The notes beneath the pieces are model-generated. The model had not been told where the DNA came from. It saw only the letters and a program-made list of their open reading frames with translations, and ran no database searches. From the NCBI GenBank assembly GCA_903902705.1, contig CAIUVX010000064.1:1-64000 (forward strand): a stretch of 64,000 nucleotides of DNA, in the 5' to 3' direction. Origin of the DNA: an uncultured Methylococcales bacterium. Lineage in GTDB: Bacteria > Pseudomonadota > Gammaproteobacteria > Methylococcales > Methylomonadaceae. Made by a program: the position numbers and the translations under genes. Below, in pieces: positions 8,834 to 13,590 of the stretch; position 1 is the stretch's first letter, and each line of letters opens with the position of its first letter.

Positions 8834-8935
8834 TTGGCTACGCTTATACAAGCTTTCCTGTGTTAATCATTGCCTTACCCGCCTAAACCTTATCCTCTCC
8901 AAAAAACAACGGTTACTTTATGGAATTCAGCCTTC

Positions 8936-9265
8936 ATGTCGCGTTCTCTTAATCCCTACATCGCTGGTAATCCAGTCGGCAATAGCAATGCGTTTACTGG
9001 TCGAGCGGATATTGTCCGTGAAGTGCTGCATATCTTTTCCCGTCCCGAAGAAAATGCCATTGTGCTTTATGGACAGCGGCGGATTGGCAAAACCTCAGTC
9101 TTACAATTTTTGAAAAAAACCTTGGCGCAAGAAACAGCCACTGGGCATTATTTTCCTGTGTATTTCGACTTGCAGGATAAAGCCACGTTTTCATTGGGTG
9201 ATGTGCTAAAAGATTTGGCTAACACCATTGCCAATGAATTGGGATTTCCCGCGCCGCCGTGCTAA
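8936..9265 (+). pseudogene. Truncated AAA ATPase remnant
   Basis: About 110 residues match the start of a stand-alone AAA/STAND-like ATPase: SLNPYIAGNPVGNSNAFTGR, then a P-loop YGQRRIGKTSVLQ and YFPVYFDLQDKATFSLGDVL. The frame then stops at 9265, directly after ANELGFPAPPC. No Walker B or C-terminal domains follow in any frame, so it is a 5' fragment of a gene several times longer. The track start at 8870 is TTG; ATG 8936 gives MSRSLNPYIAG and is more natural. It marks one edge of the AT-rich accessory island. Confidence 0.72.
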
Positions 9266-9294
9266 AGCTATTACACCTTACGAGCTTGGTATTT

Positions 9295-10488
9295 TTAAAA
9301 TGTATAGGGAATGTTGATACCAAAACTTACATTTTTTGAGCTGGCATCATTCAATCCAAAACTTACAGTAGGTTCAATAAATAAGTTATCTGTTATCAAA
9401 GATGTCAATCCCAACTGTAAATCATATTTTTCAACAGAAGGTGTAGAAGAATTTGCAAAATGCGTAACCCTCCCTGAAATAGCTGTACTTAATGTTAATG
9501 TATCATTTAAAGCATACGCAATACCTACTGTACCATCAAAGATATTATCTATCTGCGAATATAAAGTAGTATCTGAATTGATTTCAGAGGTAGCATTCGT
9601 GTTTTTTTCTGAAAAACTATGTAAATAACGGAAGTTAGCAAACAACACAGCAGGGTCAATACTTTTAGTTAATGAAACACCGCCACCAATAGCATAATTA
9701 TTATGACTTGTTGGAATATGCCCTTCTAAACTAAAAATAACAGTTGGATAACCAACATTTTCTTTTAATATAACCTGACGTAATGTAAATGCGGCATCGC
9801 CCCAAAGAGTATCAGTGGTTTTTTCAGGAGACTGTAAAGTAGCAACACTATTCATGCGATGATATAAAGGAATGCTCGCTGAAAACTGTAAATCATCCCA
9901 CAATCCATAACGTACACTATAATTTGATGTAAATGTATCTGTTGAATTTAAACCAAATAATCCACCTTGTTCAAATTTAGAATAATATAAATCCGTTTCT
10001 ACCGTTACTTGGTTACGTTTTAATAAAACACCCTGATCACGCAAAAATACATCTTCTGATGTTTTTTGATTCGAGTTTTCACCTATTGGTTGAGTTGATT
10101 TATTCTCAGACGTTTTTTTATCTGATGGTTTATTTGAAGTTAATTCTGATATTTTTTGAGTTGATTTTTCATTTTGAGCCGATGTTATTTTTTTATCTTG
10201 ATTTGCCAAATTCTCAGAATTTAAATCAGACTTTGCTTGTTGTTTAGCATTTTGTGAATCATCGCCTTTTAACCATTCTAATAATAACGCATGACTAAAT
10301 CGCCATTGTGTTCCAATATGTCTAGCAGGAATTGCTTTATCTTGTGCTAACTTTTCTAACTCAGTAGGATTAAATTTTAAAAACTTAGCGGCTTCATTCA
10401 ACGTCATTACTTCAGTTTCTGCTTGAGAAACTGTCGTTAAACTGGAAATAAATATAATACAAACAATCTTGAATAAATAAGAACGCAT
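9295..10488 (-). CDS. Outer-membrane beta-barrel with exported excisionase-like HTH domain (FapF-like)
   Basis: A 397-residue exported protein in three parts. A Sec signal lies at residues 1-23. A winged-helix/excisionase-type HTH follows at about 26-76 (VMTLNEAAKFLKF ... HIGTQWRFSHALLLEWL). A polar Lys/Ser/Asn/Gln linker runs from about 77 to 148. The last 250 residues alternate in the manner of a beta barrel and end in YTF, the terminal aromatic expected of outer-membrane proteins. The signal peptide and barrel make a DNA-binding role implausible, so the HTH fold probably binds protein in the periplasm. It follows the C39 peptidase gene by 4 nt. The pair resembles FapD/FapF, where FapF is the amyloid export pore, but similarity to FapF rests on context and architecture only. 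Confidence 0.75.
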   Translation of the reverse strand: MRSYLFKIVCIIFISSLTTVSQAETEVMTLNEAAKFLKFNPTELEKLAQDKAIPARHIGTQWRFSHALLLEWLKGDDSQNAKQQAKSDLNSENLANQDKKITSAQNEKSTQKISELTSNKPSDKKTSENKSTQPIGENSNQKTSEDVFLRDQGVLLKRNQVTVETDLYYSKFEQGGLFGLNSTDTFTSNYSVRYGLWDDLQFSASIPLYHRMNSVATLQSPEKTTDTLWGDAAFTLRQVILKENVGYPTVIFSLEGHIPTSHNNYAIGGGVSLTKSIDPAVLFANFRYLHSFSEKNTNATSEINSDTTLYSQIDNIFDGTVGIAYALNDTLTLSTAISGRVTHFANSSTPSVEKYDLQLGLTSLITDNLFIEPTVSFGLNDASSKNVSFGINIPYTF

Positions 10489-10492
10489 AAAA

Positions 10493-11200
10493 TTACCGAG
10501 TTAATAAAGGAAAACGAATATTAGGATTACCAACTTCTAACATTTGACGAATTGTTAACATTTCAGGATGTGTTAATGGATTAGAAGGCGTTTTGAGTGG
10601 GGAATTATTAATTAATTGTCCATCTTGTCTTTCTACAATAAAAATAATACCTTTAGTTTCATTCTCCTTAATCCACATATCTAAAAACTGATATAAAGGC
10701 ATTCGGACATTACCTGATGATGGGTCAGCGAGATAAACCCTATTGCCAACTATACCTTTTAAAACAGCGAAGTGTTCATGTCCTCGAGGTTTAATATAAA
10801 CAATTACTGGAGCTTTTAACTCTAGTAAATATTCTGGTAATAATTTCATTCCTTTTGTTTTATAACCATGACGCTCAGAAACCGTTTTTAAATCTAATAA
10901 GTTTAATCCTTCCTTTTGCCTTAGTTTTTCTTGGTCATTATTTAAAGAAGTTAGAATTTCTTGCAAAATAATTTCTTCACCAACAGGGTCATTAAAATAA
11001 TATGTCAATAATGTTGCTAATGCACCAGAACCACAAGAATAATCAAAACCTTGTTTAACTACACCAGCATCACGAAAATCTTTAATGGAATGCACTGAAC
11101 TGAAAATACGAGTATCCGTTCCAATATTGACAGTGACGGGCGCGGCTATTAACGTTGATGAAAAACTTAAAACAAAAATAAACCTCAAAAAATAATTCAT
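10493..11200 (-). CDS. Sec-exported stand-alone C39-family cysteine peptidase (FapD-like)
   Basis: I place the start at ATG 11200 (235 residues) because it yields a clean signal peptide, NYFLRFIFVLSFSSTLIAA. The track start at 11284 adds 28 unlikely residues that overlap the upstream gene. The C39 peptidase core is complete: Gln50 and Cys56 in KQGFDYSCGSGALATLL, His143 in GHEHFAVLKG and Asp159 in YLADPSSGN. Unlike bacteriocin exporters it has no ABC-transporter membrane or ATPase domain. FapD of the Pseudomonas amyloid operon has this form. It lies between a CHAP protein with a C39-leader-like motif and a barrel protein, suggesting it matures or helps export that CHAP protein in the periplasm. 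Confidence 0.85.
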   Translation of the reverse strand: MNYFLRFIFVLSFSSTLIAAPVTVNIGTDTRIFSSVHSIKDFRDAGVVKQGFDYSCGSGALATLLTYYFNDPVGEEIILQEILTSLNNDQEKLRQKEGLNLLDLKTVSERHGYKTKGMKLLPEYLLELKAPVIVYIKPRGHEHFAVLKGIVGNRVYLADPSSGNVRMPLYQFLDMWIKENETKGIIFIVERQDGQLINNSPLKTPSNPLTHPEMLTIRQMLEVGNPNIRFPLLTR

Positions 11201-11216
11201 ACAGACACTTAAAAGA

Positions 11217-11243
11217 AAGGCAGAATAACTACTATTCTGCCTT
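11217..11243 (-). terminator. Intercistronic terminator/attenuator between CHAP and C39 genes
   Basis: Read on the minus strand, AAGGCAGAATA pairs with TATTCTGCCTT around a 5-nt loop, and TCTTTT follows at once. This is the form of an intrinsic terminator. It lies after the CHAP stop and 17 nt before the C39 start, so it should reduce transcription into the peptidase and barrel genes compared with the CHAP gene. Confidence 0.7.
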
Positions 11244-11267
11244 ATTAAAGAGAATAAAGAGACAAAA

Positions 11268-11780
11268 TTATTTGCCGTAAACAAATCCTGCTATTTTTGC
11301 AGAATTTGTTACAATATTATCAGTTCTAGTACTCGCAACGTTCCAACCTTTTACATTCATTTCCCTTACAGTGAAGTTGTTACCACTAACACTTGTAACA
11401 TACGCAACATGACCATAGGTAGCAAAGAATTTTGTGTTATACACTACCACTGAACCCTGTGTAGGAGTTTTACCTGTTGAAAAACCTTTAGCTTTTGCAT
11501 TTGCAAGCCAATTAACCGCATTACCTTGCCAAGGTACACCGTTTGCTGCATATTTACTGCCCCAACCATTCAAACCGCCAATTTTTCCTCTCACTATTTG
11601 GTCAACAAACCAAGTACAATAGCCTTTATCAAAAACTCCTTTGGCTTCCACACTAGCTAGTTCATGGTCGTTCAAACTTTCACCAACCACGCCATTTAAT
11701 GTAGAAAAACTGCTTTCAGCATTAGCATTTAAGGCGGTAATTGCCAATAAAGCCAACACAACATGAGTTAAAATTTTCAT
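11268..11780 (-). CDS. Secreted CHAP-domain protein with C39-leader-like motif
   Basis: The start is ATG 11780, with AGAGG 5 nt upstream; the GTG at 11786 used by the track overlaps that ribosome site. The 170-residue product has a Sec signal (ILTHVVLALLAITALNANA), then a segment LNDHELASVEAKG at 36-48. Leu36, Glu40, Leu41 and Val44 match the spacing of double-glycine leaders cut by C39 peptidases, although the usual GG is AK here. The CHAP domain has Cys55 (GYCTWFVD), His124 (YGHVAYVTS) and Glu140/Asn142 (VREMN), so it is probably active as a peptidoglycan amidase or endopeptidase. It is the first gene of the three-gene cassette and a probable substrate of the next two products. Confidence 0.82.
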   Translation of the reverse strand: MKILTHVVLALLAITALNANAESSFSTLNGVVGESLNDHELASVEAKGVFDKGYCTWFVDQIVRGKIGGLNGWGSKYAANGVPWQGNAVNWLANAKAKGFSTGKTPTQGSVVVYNTKFFATYGHVAYVTSVSGNNFTVREMNVKGWNVASTRTDNIVTNSAKIAGFVYGK

Positions 11781-12120
11781 AAACACCTCTCAATTAAAAT
11801 TGCTAATTTGCTATAATCCCTAAATAATTCGGGCTTAATGACTATGGCTAAAGCAATTTATTTACCAATATAATGAAATTGAGATACGATAGTGGTAAAA
11901 GAGTTTTTGACCTGATTTTACTGCTAATTTAGGGTTTAAAAGATGACTATAATTGTCATATATATCTATTTTTTGTCACAAACATACATTTTTTAGCATA
12001 ACGAAGCGCGACTGGATATGTTACCCCTCGTCACAATATTTTGATTGTAACGTTGTGCTGAATATCATATCAGAATCCAAACTGTTTGAGCGGGTTAAAT
12101 AACCTACCCCCCGCTCTAGC
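11781..12120. other. AT-rich intergenic region upstream of the CHAP cassette
   Basis: About 340 bp with no supportable ORF. It should contain the minus-strand promoter of the CHAP-C39-barrel unit. The composition is markedly AT-rich compared with the flanking mltA gene. I could not pick out a convincing -35/-10 pair or operator. Confidence 0.4.
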
Positions 12121-12207
12121 TGCGTAGGTTGGGTTGCCGTCTTTTTGGCAACCCAACATTCTCTGGTATTCGTTGGGTTGCGAAAGAGCCGCAACCCAAT
12201 CTACGCG
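12121..12207. repeat. Interspersed double-hairpin repeat (TTGGGTTGC family)
   Basis: Two hairpins lie side by side: TTGGGTTGCC/GGCAACCCAA (12129-12156) and GTTGGGTTGCG/CGCAACCCAA (12172-12199). Both are enclosed by an outer inverted repeat, GCGTAGGTTGGGTTGC against GCAACCCAATCTACGC, with one mismatch. A partial copy in the opposite orientation lies at 39375-39432. The element has no coding capacity and looks like a REP/BIME or MITE-type mobile palindrome. Confidence 0.75.
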
Positions 12208-12295
12208 CTTTCTATTCATTTTTAAAAACAAAATCAACCTGTAAAACACATCATTAAGGACAATTTAAATCGCCCTTAATGAAAAACACTGTCTA

Positions 12296-13501
12296 TTAAA
12301 GATTACGCGGCACCAATAAATAATAATGCCCTTTGGATTTCATAGGGCCTGCCATAAGACTGGCTTTATCTCCCTGTCCCCAGTAAACATCGCCACGAAT
12401 TACGCCTTTAATCGCGCCGCCTGTGTCTTGTGCCATGAGTAAACATTGTAATCTTTTCCCTTGTATGGGATGTTCAGCATCTAACCAGACAGGAATGCCA
12501 TAGGGTAGATTTTTATGGTCGATGGCTAAGCTGTGTTGTGCGGTTAATGGTACTGCCATTGCACCTGTCGGCCCTACATTGGGGTCTACGGGGCTAAACT
12601 GAAAATACACATAAGAGGCATTGCTGAGCATAAGTTGCTCACCTTCTACGGGATGTTGTTCTATCCACGCACGGATGGTTTGCATGGAAATATCTTCTTT
12701 AGAAATTTCACCGTTATTGACTAGCGTTTTGCCGATTGCATAGTAGGCATGACCATTGCCGCCTGCAAAACTTAAGCCTCGAATACTACCATCTTCCATA
12801 ATTACGCGCCCTGAGCCTTGTATTTCCATAAAAAAGGCATCTATTTCATTATCAACCCAAAGTAGTTCTAGTCCTTTGTTGGCTAACGCGCCTGATTTAA
12901 TGGCTGCGCGGCTTTGAGAGCGTAAACTTGGATTGCTAGGTATCGGATAGATAGGCACGTTGTAACGGGCAGATTGTCGGTATGAGCCATGCAGTTCAGG
13001 CAAATAATAGCCTGTAAACATTCCATCAAACAAGCCGTTTTCACAGACGGCATAAGGCTTAAACCATTGTTCAAAAAATTGTCGTTCTTGTCCGCGTATC
13101 ACAGGTTTGGAACAAATTGCTTGCCAATCAGACATGCGACCTAATTGAAATGAGCCACTCAATACCTTATCGGCTGGCATGGTACGCCAACGCTTGCAAG
13201 AATGGTGAAAGGCTTTTAATGCGGCAACGTGATCGTCTTTTTCCCAACCAGGTAATAAATTAAAATCACTAGGATAAAGCTGAACATTGGACAATCGAGT
13301 GCCAATAGGTGCGCCTGTAATCACTGGCGGAGTTTCTTGAACAGGGGTGTTAGGATGTGTAATAGTGACAGGTGGTTTAGTCACGGTGTTGTTGTTAGGG
13401 TAGTAAACAATGGGCTGGTCGATTGGTGGTGTTTCGGAACAACCGCCGAGTAAAAATAATGCTGTCAAAACAGCACTATAGCGAATTAAAGAGAGTTTCA
13501 T
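12296..13501 (-). CDS. mltA: Membrane-bound lytic murein transglycosylase A
   Basis: An outer-membrane lipoprotein that cleaves the MurNAc-GlcNAc bond of peptidoglycan to leave 1,6-anhydro ends. I take ATG 13501 (401 residues), which gives a lipoprotein signal with lipobox LLGGC (Cys21); the track start adds 20 unsupported residues. The MltA domain includes FDGMFTGYYLPELHGS and VDNEIDAFFMEIQGSGRV. The C-terminal 3D domain has three conserved Asp positions, seen in MAQDTGGAIKGVIRGDVYWG. A Pro/Thr-rich linker (residues about 30-60) separates the lipid anchor from the enzyme. Monocistronic as far as I can see. Confidence 0.95.
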   Translation of the reverse strand: MKLSLIRYSAVLTALFLLGGCSETPPIDQPIVYYPNNNTVTKPPVTITHPNTPVQETPPVITGAPIGTRLSNVQLYPSDFNLLPGWEKDDHVAALKAFHHSCKRWRTMPADKVLSGSFQLGRMSDWQAICSKPVIRGQERQFFEQWFKPYAVCENGLFDGMFTGYYLPELHGSYRQSARYNVPIYPIPSNPSLRSQSRAAIKSGALANKGLELLWVDNEIDAFFMEIQGSGRVIMEDGSIRGLSFAGGNGHAYYAIGKTLVNNGEISKEDISMQTIRAWIEQHPVEGEQLMLSNASYVYFQFSPVDPNVGPTGAMAVPLTAQHSLAIDHKNLPYGIPVWLDAEHPIQGKRLQCLLMAQDTGGAIKGVIRGDVYWGQGDKASLMAGPMKSKGHYYLLVPRNL

Positions 13502-13590
13502 AATGGGTTTCCTGATAAAAAAGCGTGTTATTGATGCCATACATTTGGGTGCATGAAACAACTGTTTTGTAATTATTAATGGGGGGGTTG

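Follow-up and report, generated by a model that had tools for sequence, protein, structure and literature searches.

Three genes lie in a row on the minus strand of the window (the whole stretch of 64,000 nucleotides that was analysed, from a methane-oxidising bacterium), as the preliminary description of this DNA had recognized. They encode a CHAP hydrolase precursor of 170 aa (11268-11780; Pfam, Foldseek), a Sec-exported, FapD-like C39 peptidase of 235 aa (10493-11200, with its start codon ATG at 11200; Pfam, FapD model) and a FapF-type outer-membrane barrel protein of 397 aa (9295-10488; profiles, Foldseek). The CHAP gene had been read from a GTG at 11786, but the ATG at 11780, preceded by GAGAGG at 11786-11791, is the most likely start. 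The genes are flanked by mltA (12296-13561) and by an AAA-type fragment on the plus strand (8870-9265); only these three genes lie in between, and amyloid subunit genes with repeats were not found beside the pore. No immunity gene was seen adjoining the three genes, as had been remarked earlier. The plus-strand fragment is an apparently truncated AAA/STAND-type ATPase of 131 aa with weak PADLOC matches to PDC-S60 and PDC-S01; PADLOC returned nothing for the three proteins themselves.

Three features had been overlooked, namely a leader on the CHAP precursor (residues 22-47), an HTH_17 domain on the barrel protein (residues 27-74) and a terminator-like hairpin in the CHAP/C39 intergenic region (11217-11243, minus strand). 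The hairpin has an 11-pair stem followed by the T-rich tail TCTTTT and a z of −2.9. Strong stem-loops, some of whose stems were read by eye, also occur in the cargo-C39 gaps of the related loci L033, L034, L037, L038 and L142. Placed between the gene of the cargo and those of the machinery, the hairpin probably serves to maintain more cargo than machinery transcripts.

The G+C content of the three genes is 33%, as compared to 42% in the rest of the window, and the low-G+C island spans 9270-12240. The sister genome G1049 shows 94.6% DNA identity next door and loses homology at 12241; its contig ends soon past this point, and the empty site is only partly visible. Inverted repeats (GGGTTGCGG...CAACCCAAC) are present at 12100-12240, the island edge where the sister homology stops. 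The C39 subfamily was detected in only 4 of all 311 genomes of the order and was not found in any of the seven other congeners. Horizontal transfer, apparently recent, is the simplest reading of the origin of the island. A viral origin was rejected, as viral contigs yielded only generic HTH, C39 and CHAP domains and no relatives of the same type.

Leader and enzyme domain of the CHAP precursor

The CHAP precursor begins with a Sec signal peptide (residues 1-21, ending in LNANA; 11718-11780, minus strand), judged, like the other signal peptides, by eye from the sequence. Between it and the enzyme domain lies a leader of 26 residues (residues 22-47; 11640-11717, minus strand) with a double-glycine-like site, LNDHELASVEAK followed by G, and the junction of leader and enzyme reads ESSFSTLNGVVGESLNDHELASVEAK followed by GVFDKGYC. 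The consensus of double-glycine leaders of C39 substrates is Leu at P12, Glu at P8, Leu at P7, Val at P4 and Gly or Ala at P2. The window leader has the same hydrophobic-acidic register (P12 Leu, P8 Glu, P7 Leu, P4 Val) and a small P2 residue (Ala), with a predicted cut after Lys47. Its site is A-K instead of the canonical G-G; close relatives have G-K, G-Q and G-E.

A PSSM built from nine relatives' leaders at related C39/barrel loci, with the window protein excluded, scored the CHAP leader at 25.4 bits, as compared to 9.2 bits for the runner-up among 38,428 25-mers of the window; none of 200,000 shuffles reached 25.4 bits. The held-out HMM likewise placed it first of 1,234 segments, with an E-value of 0.065 against 7.7 for the next. 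When the organism's own genome was searched with a model including the window leader, the CHAP leader was the sole full match, the next being partial (E 0.23), and further leader-tagged cargo in this genome was rejected for want of another full-length match. Across 66 C39 loci, proteins that combine a signal peptide with the motif number 82 of 203 in the vicinity of the C39 gene, as compared to 21 of 175 outside it, a descriptive enrichment whose p value is indicative only, many of the loci being related. By its sequence, the CHAP precursor carries the leader typical of cargo at related C39/barrel pairs, and trimming at Lys47 by the C39 peptidase is to be expected with considerable confidence.

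The enzyme domain matches Pfam CHAP (E 8.7e-16) and displays the CHAP fold by Foldseek, the top match being the S. aureus amidase 5t1q (E 8e-8). Its Cys/His/Glu/Asn site, earlier described as full, is indeed complete (Cys55, His124, Glu140, Asn142), and a putative peptidoglycan-hydrolysing activity can be assigned. The predicted mature enzyme (residues 48-170; 11271-11639, minus strand) has 123 aa, a mass of 13.2 kDa and a pI of 9.9, and its single Cys leaves no disulfide to hinder passage. Its closest matches among CHAP proteins came from staphylococci and phages, in collections that are rich in staphylococci. With the SsaA-like and phage CHAP hydrolases of Gram-positive hosts (5t1q, 2lrj and the phage phi812 hub CHAP) it shares the fold, the Cys/His/Glu/Asn site and roughly 27-42% identity, whereas the window protein is a stand-alone domain with a Sec signal and a C39 leader in a Gram-negative bacterium. 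The predicted cut lies 7 residues ahead of the catalytic Cys55; hence, as a speculation, the leader may also keep the enzyme inactive until trimming, and an immunity gene would then be less necessary. At L161:1462-1887 (G099), a small CHAP protein exported by Sec but without the leader is encoded away from any C39 gene.

The C39 peptidase, the barrel and its winged helix

The peptidase matches Pfam Peptidase_C39 (E 1.1e-17); Cys56, His143 and Asp159 are present and an ABC part is absent, exactly as noted in the preliminary description. Its closest named models are FapD (E 4e-30) and FilB (E 2e-24), both under their cut-offs; the FapD score is 104.7 bits against an equivalog cut-off of 330 bits. 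Like FapD, it is a Sec-exported free C39 peptidase, and it is predicted to cut the CHAP leader in the periplasm; the leader itself is evident from the sequence.

The barrel protein ends in YTF, as read before, and a profile of the window barrel and three relatives matches the FapF crystal structure 5O65 with an E-value of 3e-26. The top Foldseek matches are also all FapF, despite a weak structure model, and the FapF equivalog cut-off is not reached. Since the AlphaFold model has a mean pLDDT of 45, with the winged helix alone being confident, claims about the barrel rest on sequence profiles. The β-barrel, modelled with low confidence, comprises about residues 161-397 (9298-10008, minus strand). 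It is preceded by a linker of about residues 75-151 (10036-10266, minus strand; sequence, AlphaFold), which terminates in a conserved EDVFLRDQ helix.

Directly after the signal peptide, residues 27-74 (10267-10410, minus strand) form an HTH_17 domain, an excisionase/MerR-type winged helix (Pfam E 2.8e-9), which from this position would be expected in the periplasm. Its core has a pLDDT of about 85 and its fold matches BldC (6ama) with a TM-score, taken by target, of 0.71-0.74. The domain is also found by Pfam in the barrels of L034 and L037, falls just under the cut-off in L038 and appears similar by sequence reading in L033. At L033:7680-9003 (Ca. Methylobacter favarea), the HTH-barrel gene is split by a frameshift, through decay or sequencing error.

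In FapF, the N-terminal periplasmic position is held by a coiled coil (PMC5557850), and in the window barrel HTH_17 occupies that place. In other methanotroph loci (L045:5163-6701, L221:7137-8819 and L222:1296-2927), the FapF-type barrel has a SPOR domain at this position; the barrel genes lie beside C39 genes and genes for small leader-tagged proteins of the EDFRALGNIQAAPVQNAELAATEGG type. The periplasmic module of these pores thus appears to vary between systems. In a literature search, no paper was found that connects FapF to a helix-turn-helix or CHAP to Fap.

In L033, L034, L037, L038 and L141, the linker that joins HTH and barrel harbours a C39-like site with (G/A)-R-G at its end; this leader-like stretch ranks second among the scored 12-mers in L038 and first in the other four. 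As a second C39 site in the window barrel it was rejected, the stretch being degenerate there.

Related loci, exchange of cargo and known systems

The nearest C39/barrel loci are L033 (Ca. Methylobacter favarea), L034 (a betaproteobacterial MAG), L037, L038 and those of G408 (L142, L143); for several of these relatives, the assembly is fragmented or derived from a metagenome. Beside the C39 gene, L033, L034, L037, L038 and L142 encode small Sec proteins that share the leader of the CHAP precursor and have unrelated mature parts (leader examples are EEFSTLDGIPADAMSVAEMQSVEGK followed by G in L037 and DQFSTLEGVQAEAMTSAEMDSVQGK in L143). The mature cargo of the relatives is unlike CHAP and differs between loci, and that of the relatives tested gave no convincing match to a Pfam or NCBIfam family. 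The slot of the CHAP gene is thus filled in the relatives by small proteins that are unrelated behind their common leader, and the putative cargo is therefore exchangeable, the leader, C39 and barrel being kept while the mature part varies.

The boundary of the leader is seen in two cargo genes of L033, at 3718 and 6427. Their products are identical over residues 1-47 and dissimilar from the following codon on, and the DNA differs hardly at all between a point slightly upstream of the genes and the Lys47 codon. This divergence point places the leader/cargo junction after the Lys of V-E-G-K, which aligns with V-E-A-K in the window.

The preliminary description had named rare co-occurrence of the three genes as evidence against its reading, and taken literally this is what was found: CHAP is paired with C39 and barrel at no examined locus besides that of the window genome, so that a conserved CHAP-C39-barrel triad was rejected. 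Exchange of cargo in the relatives explains the lack of such a triad. CHAP as putative cargo is a single case, seen in the window genome only.

Searches with the barrel profile in two draws of genomes (369 of the class, 399 of the phylum) returned mainly FapF-type barrels or lone HTH matches, G408 being the only genome in them that resembles the same barrel subfamily. Two further arrangements were observed beside C39 genes. Methanotroph Fap-like operons (L049, L052, L055, L057, L058, L065, L071) have two leader-like proteins, an ELDNARGREG protein upstream and an ELDQLRGGF protein downstream, which are possible FapD-type substrates. L075, L076, L079, L080, L082 and L084 have several small Sec proteins per locus with an LTDxQMDxVTAG-type site.

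Among known systems, Fap of Pseudomonas shares with the window a C39 peptidase that is free and exported by Sec, as well as a homologous barrel with a linker and a conserved helix ahead of it. The window, in contrast, is devoid of the amyloid subunits FapA, FapB, FapC and FapE, has a winged helix in place of the coiled coil, and shows a recognisable leader, whereas FapD, which acts in the periplasm and is required for secretion, has a target reported as unclear (PMC5557850). The nap island of Neisseria gonorrhoeae, also a small acquired island of low G+C, encodes a C39 peptidase (NapP), a FapF homologue (NapF) and GG peptides (NapABC) (PMC11798529). The window resembles it in the C39 peptidase, the FapF-type pore and the leader-tagged basic cargo in a low-G+C island. 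It differs in that the cargo is a complete CHAP enzyme of 123 aa when mature rather than a short cationic peptide, carries a Sec signal peptide plus the leader, and is accompanied by HTH_17 on the barrel; equivalents of napR, napH and napI do not adjoin the genes. The fil genes of Acinetobacter (FilB C39, FilC) are matched far below curated cut-offs (NCBIfam FilB E 2e-24, FilC E 8e-7), and a pilus-type gene is absent from the window locus. The leader register is common to the double-glycine class II bacteriocins of ABC-dependent type 1 export, but the window C39 is free and periplasmic, and Sec rather than an ABC transporter would provide the passage across the inner membrane. By analogy, the window system works like Fap and most like Neisseria nap, and lacks defining features of each, namely the amyloid subunits and coiled coil of Fap, and the short peptides, regulator and holin-like gene of Nap.

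Proposed export of an enzyme and alternative roles

The locus is best read, with a probability of about 0.6, as a compact, horizontally acquired cassette that exports an enzyme in two steps, in the manner of Fap and Nap. Sec would first export all three proteins (CHAP precursor, C39 peptidase and barrel), as their signal peptides suggest. The periplasmic C39 would then recognise the leader and cut after Lys47, baring the 13-kDa CHAP domain. The mature enzyme would then leave through the FapF-type barrel, with the periplasmic HTH_17 acting as gate or feeder, as the homology of the barrel to FapF suggests. Outside, the basic CHAP would hydrolyse peptidoglycan, most likely that of other cells or lysed neighbours. 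The earlier proposal of a CHAP enzyme processed and released by peptidase and barrel thus gains partial support from the leader on the precursor and the homology of the barrel to FapF. FapF exports unfolded, amyloid-type chains and the cargo here is an enzyme domain; release through the barrel is nevertheless regarded as reasonably probable. The enzyme may act on competitors, in self-lysis or on the own wall, and action mainly on other cells is put forward tentatively, at somewhat below even odds.

Self- or kin-lysis, in which processed CHAP accumulates and lyses the producer's population under certain conditions, freeing matrix or nutrients, is the rival that survives best, and is rather unlikely. 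The nap system, which among those described comes nearest in its set of genes (C39, FapF homologue, GG cargo), acts in autolysis and not against competitors (PMC11798529), the pI of 9.9 of mature CHAP resembles the pI of 9-10 of mNap peptides, and an adjoining immunity gene was not seen. However, Nap cargo consists of peptides of 16-36 residues rather than enzymes, and neither the regulator, the holin-like gene nor the LagC-like gene of the nap island was seen at the window locus.

Peptidoglycan hydrolases are common companions of envelope-spanning machines, and the C39 peptidase could instead activate a CHAP zymogen in the producer's periplasm, opening the wall around the pore, with CHAP staying inside and the true cargo elsewhere. 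The peptidoglycan-binding SPOR domains at the N-terminal position of the barrel in sister systems would suit such local wall remodelling; yet the CHAP gene occupies the slot of leader-tagged, non-enzymatic cargo in the relatives, and no other gene of the genome carries the full leader, which renders this role improbable. That C39 processes CHAP while the barrel serves otherwise (for example as a porin-like protein or adhesin), adjacent only by shared acquisition, is very doubtful: HTH_17 is unlike any described part of FapF and the hairpin sets cargo apart from machinery, but C39 and HTH-barrel are adjacent in the same order in L033, L034, L037 and L038 (every HTH-barrel locus showing both) and the best PDB match of the barrel profile is a dedicated polypeptide exporter.

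Under the export reading, the question arises why a winged helix of the DNA-binding type sits on the periplasmic side of an outer-membrane pore. In RiPP pathways, leaders are bound by recognition elements of the winged-helix type. It is conceivable, though a long shot, that HTH_17 on the pore similarly reads the cargo leader, the system being a distinct Fap-like branch that would trim by C39, and export, whatever protein follows the leader, even an enzyme.

The leader with its sharp natural boundary predicts an exact cut for a FapD-type periplasmic C39 peptidase, whose target was called unclear (PMC5557850), and substrate recognition in this secretion class becomes directly testable. The occurrence of the leader on unrelated cargo suggests a portable export tag, and an enzyme would join amyloids and small peptides as likely cargo of the class.
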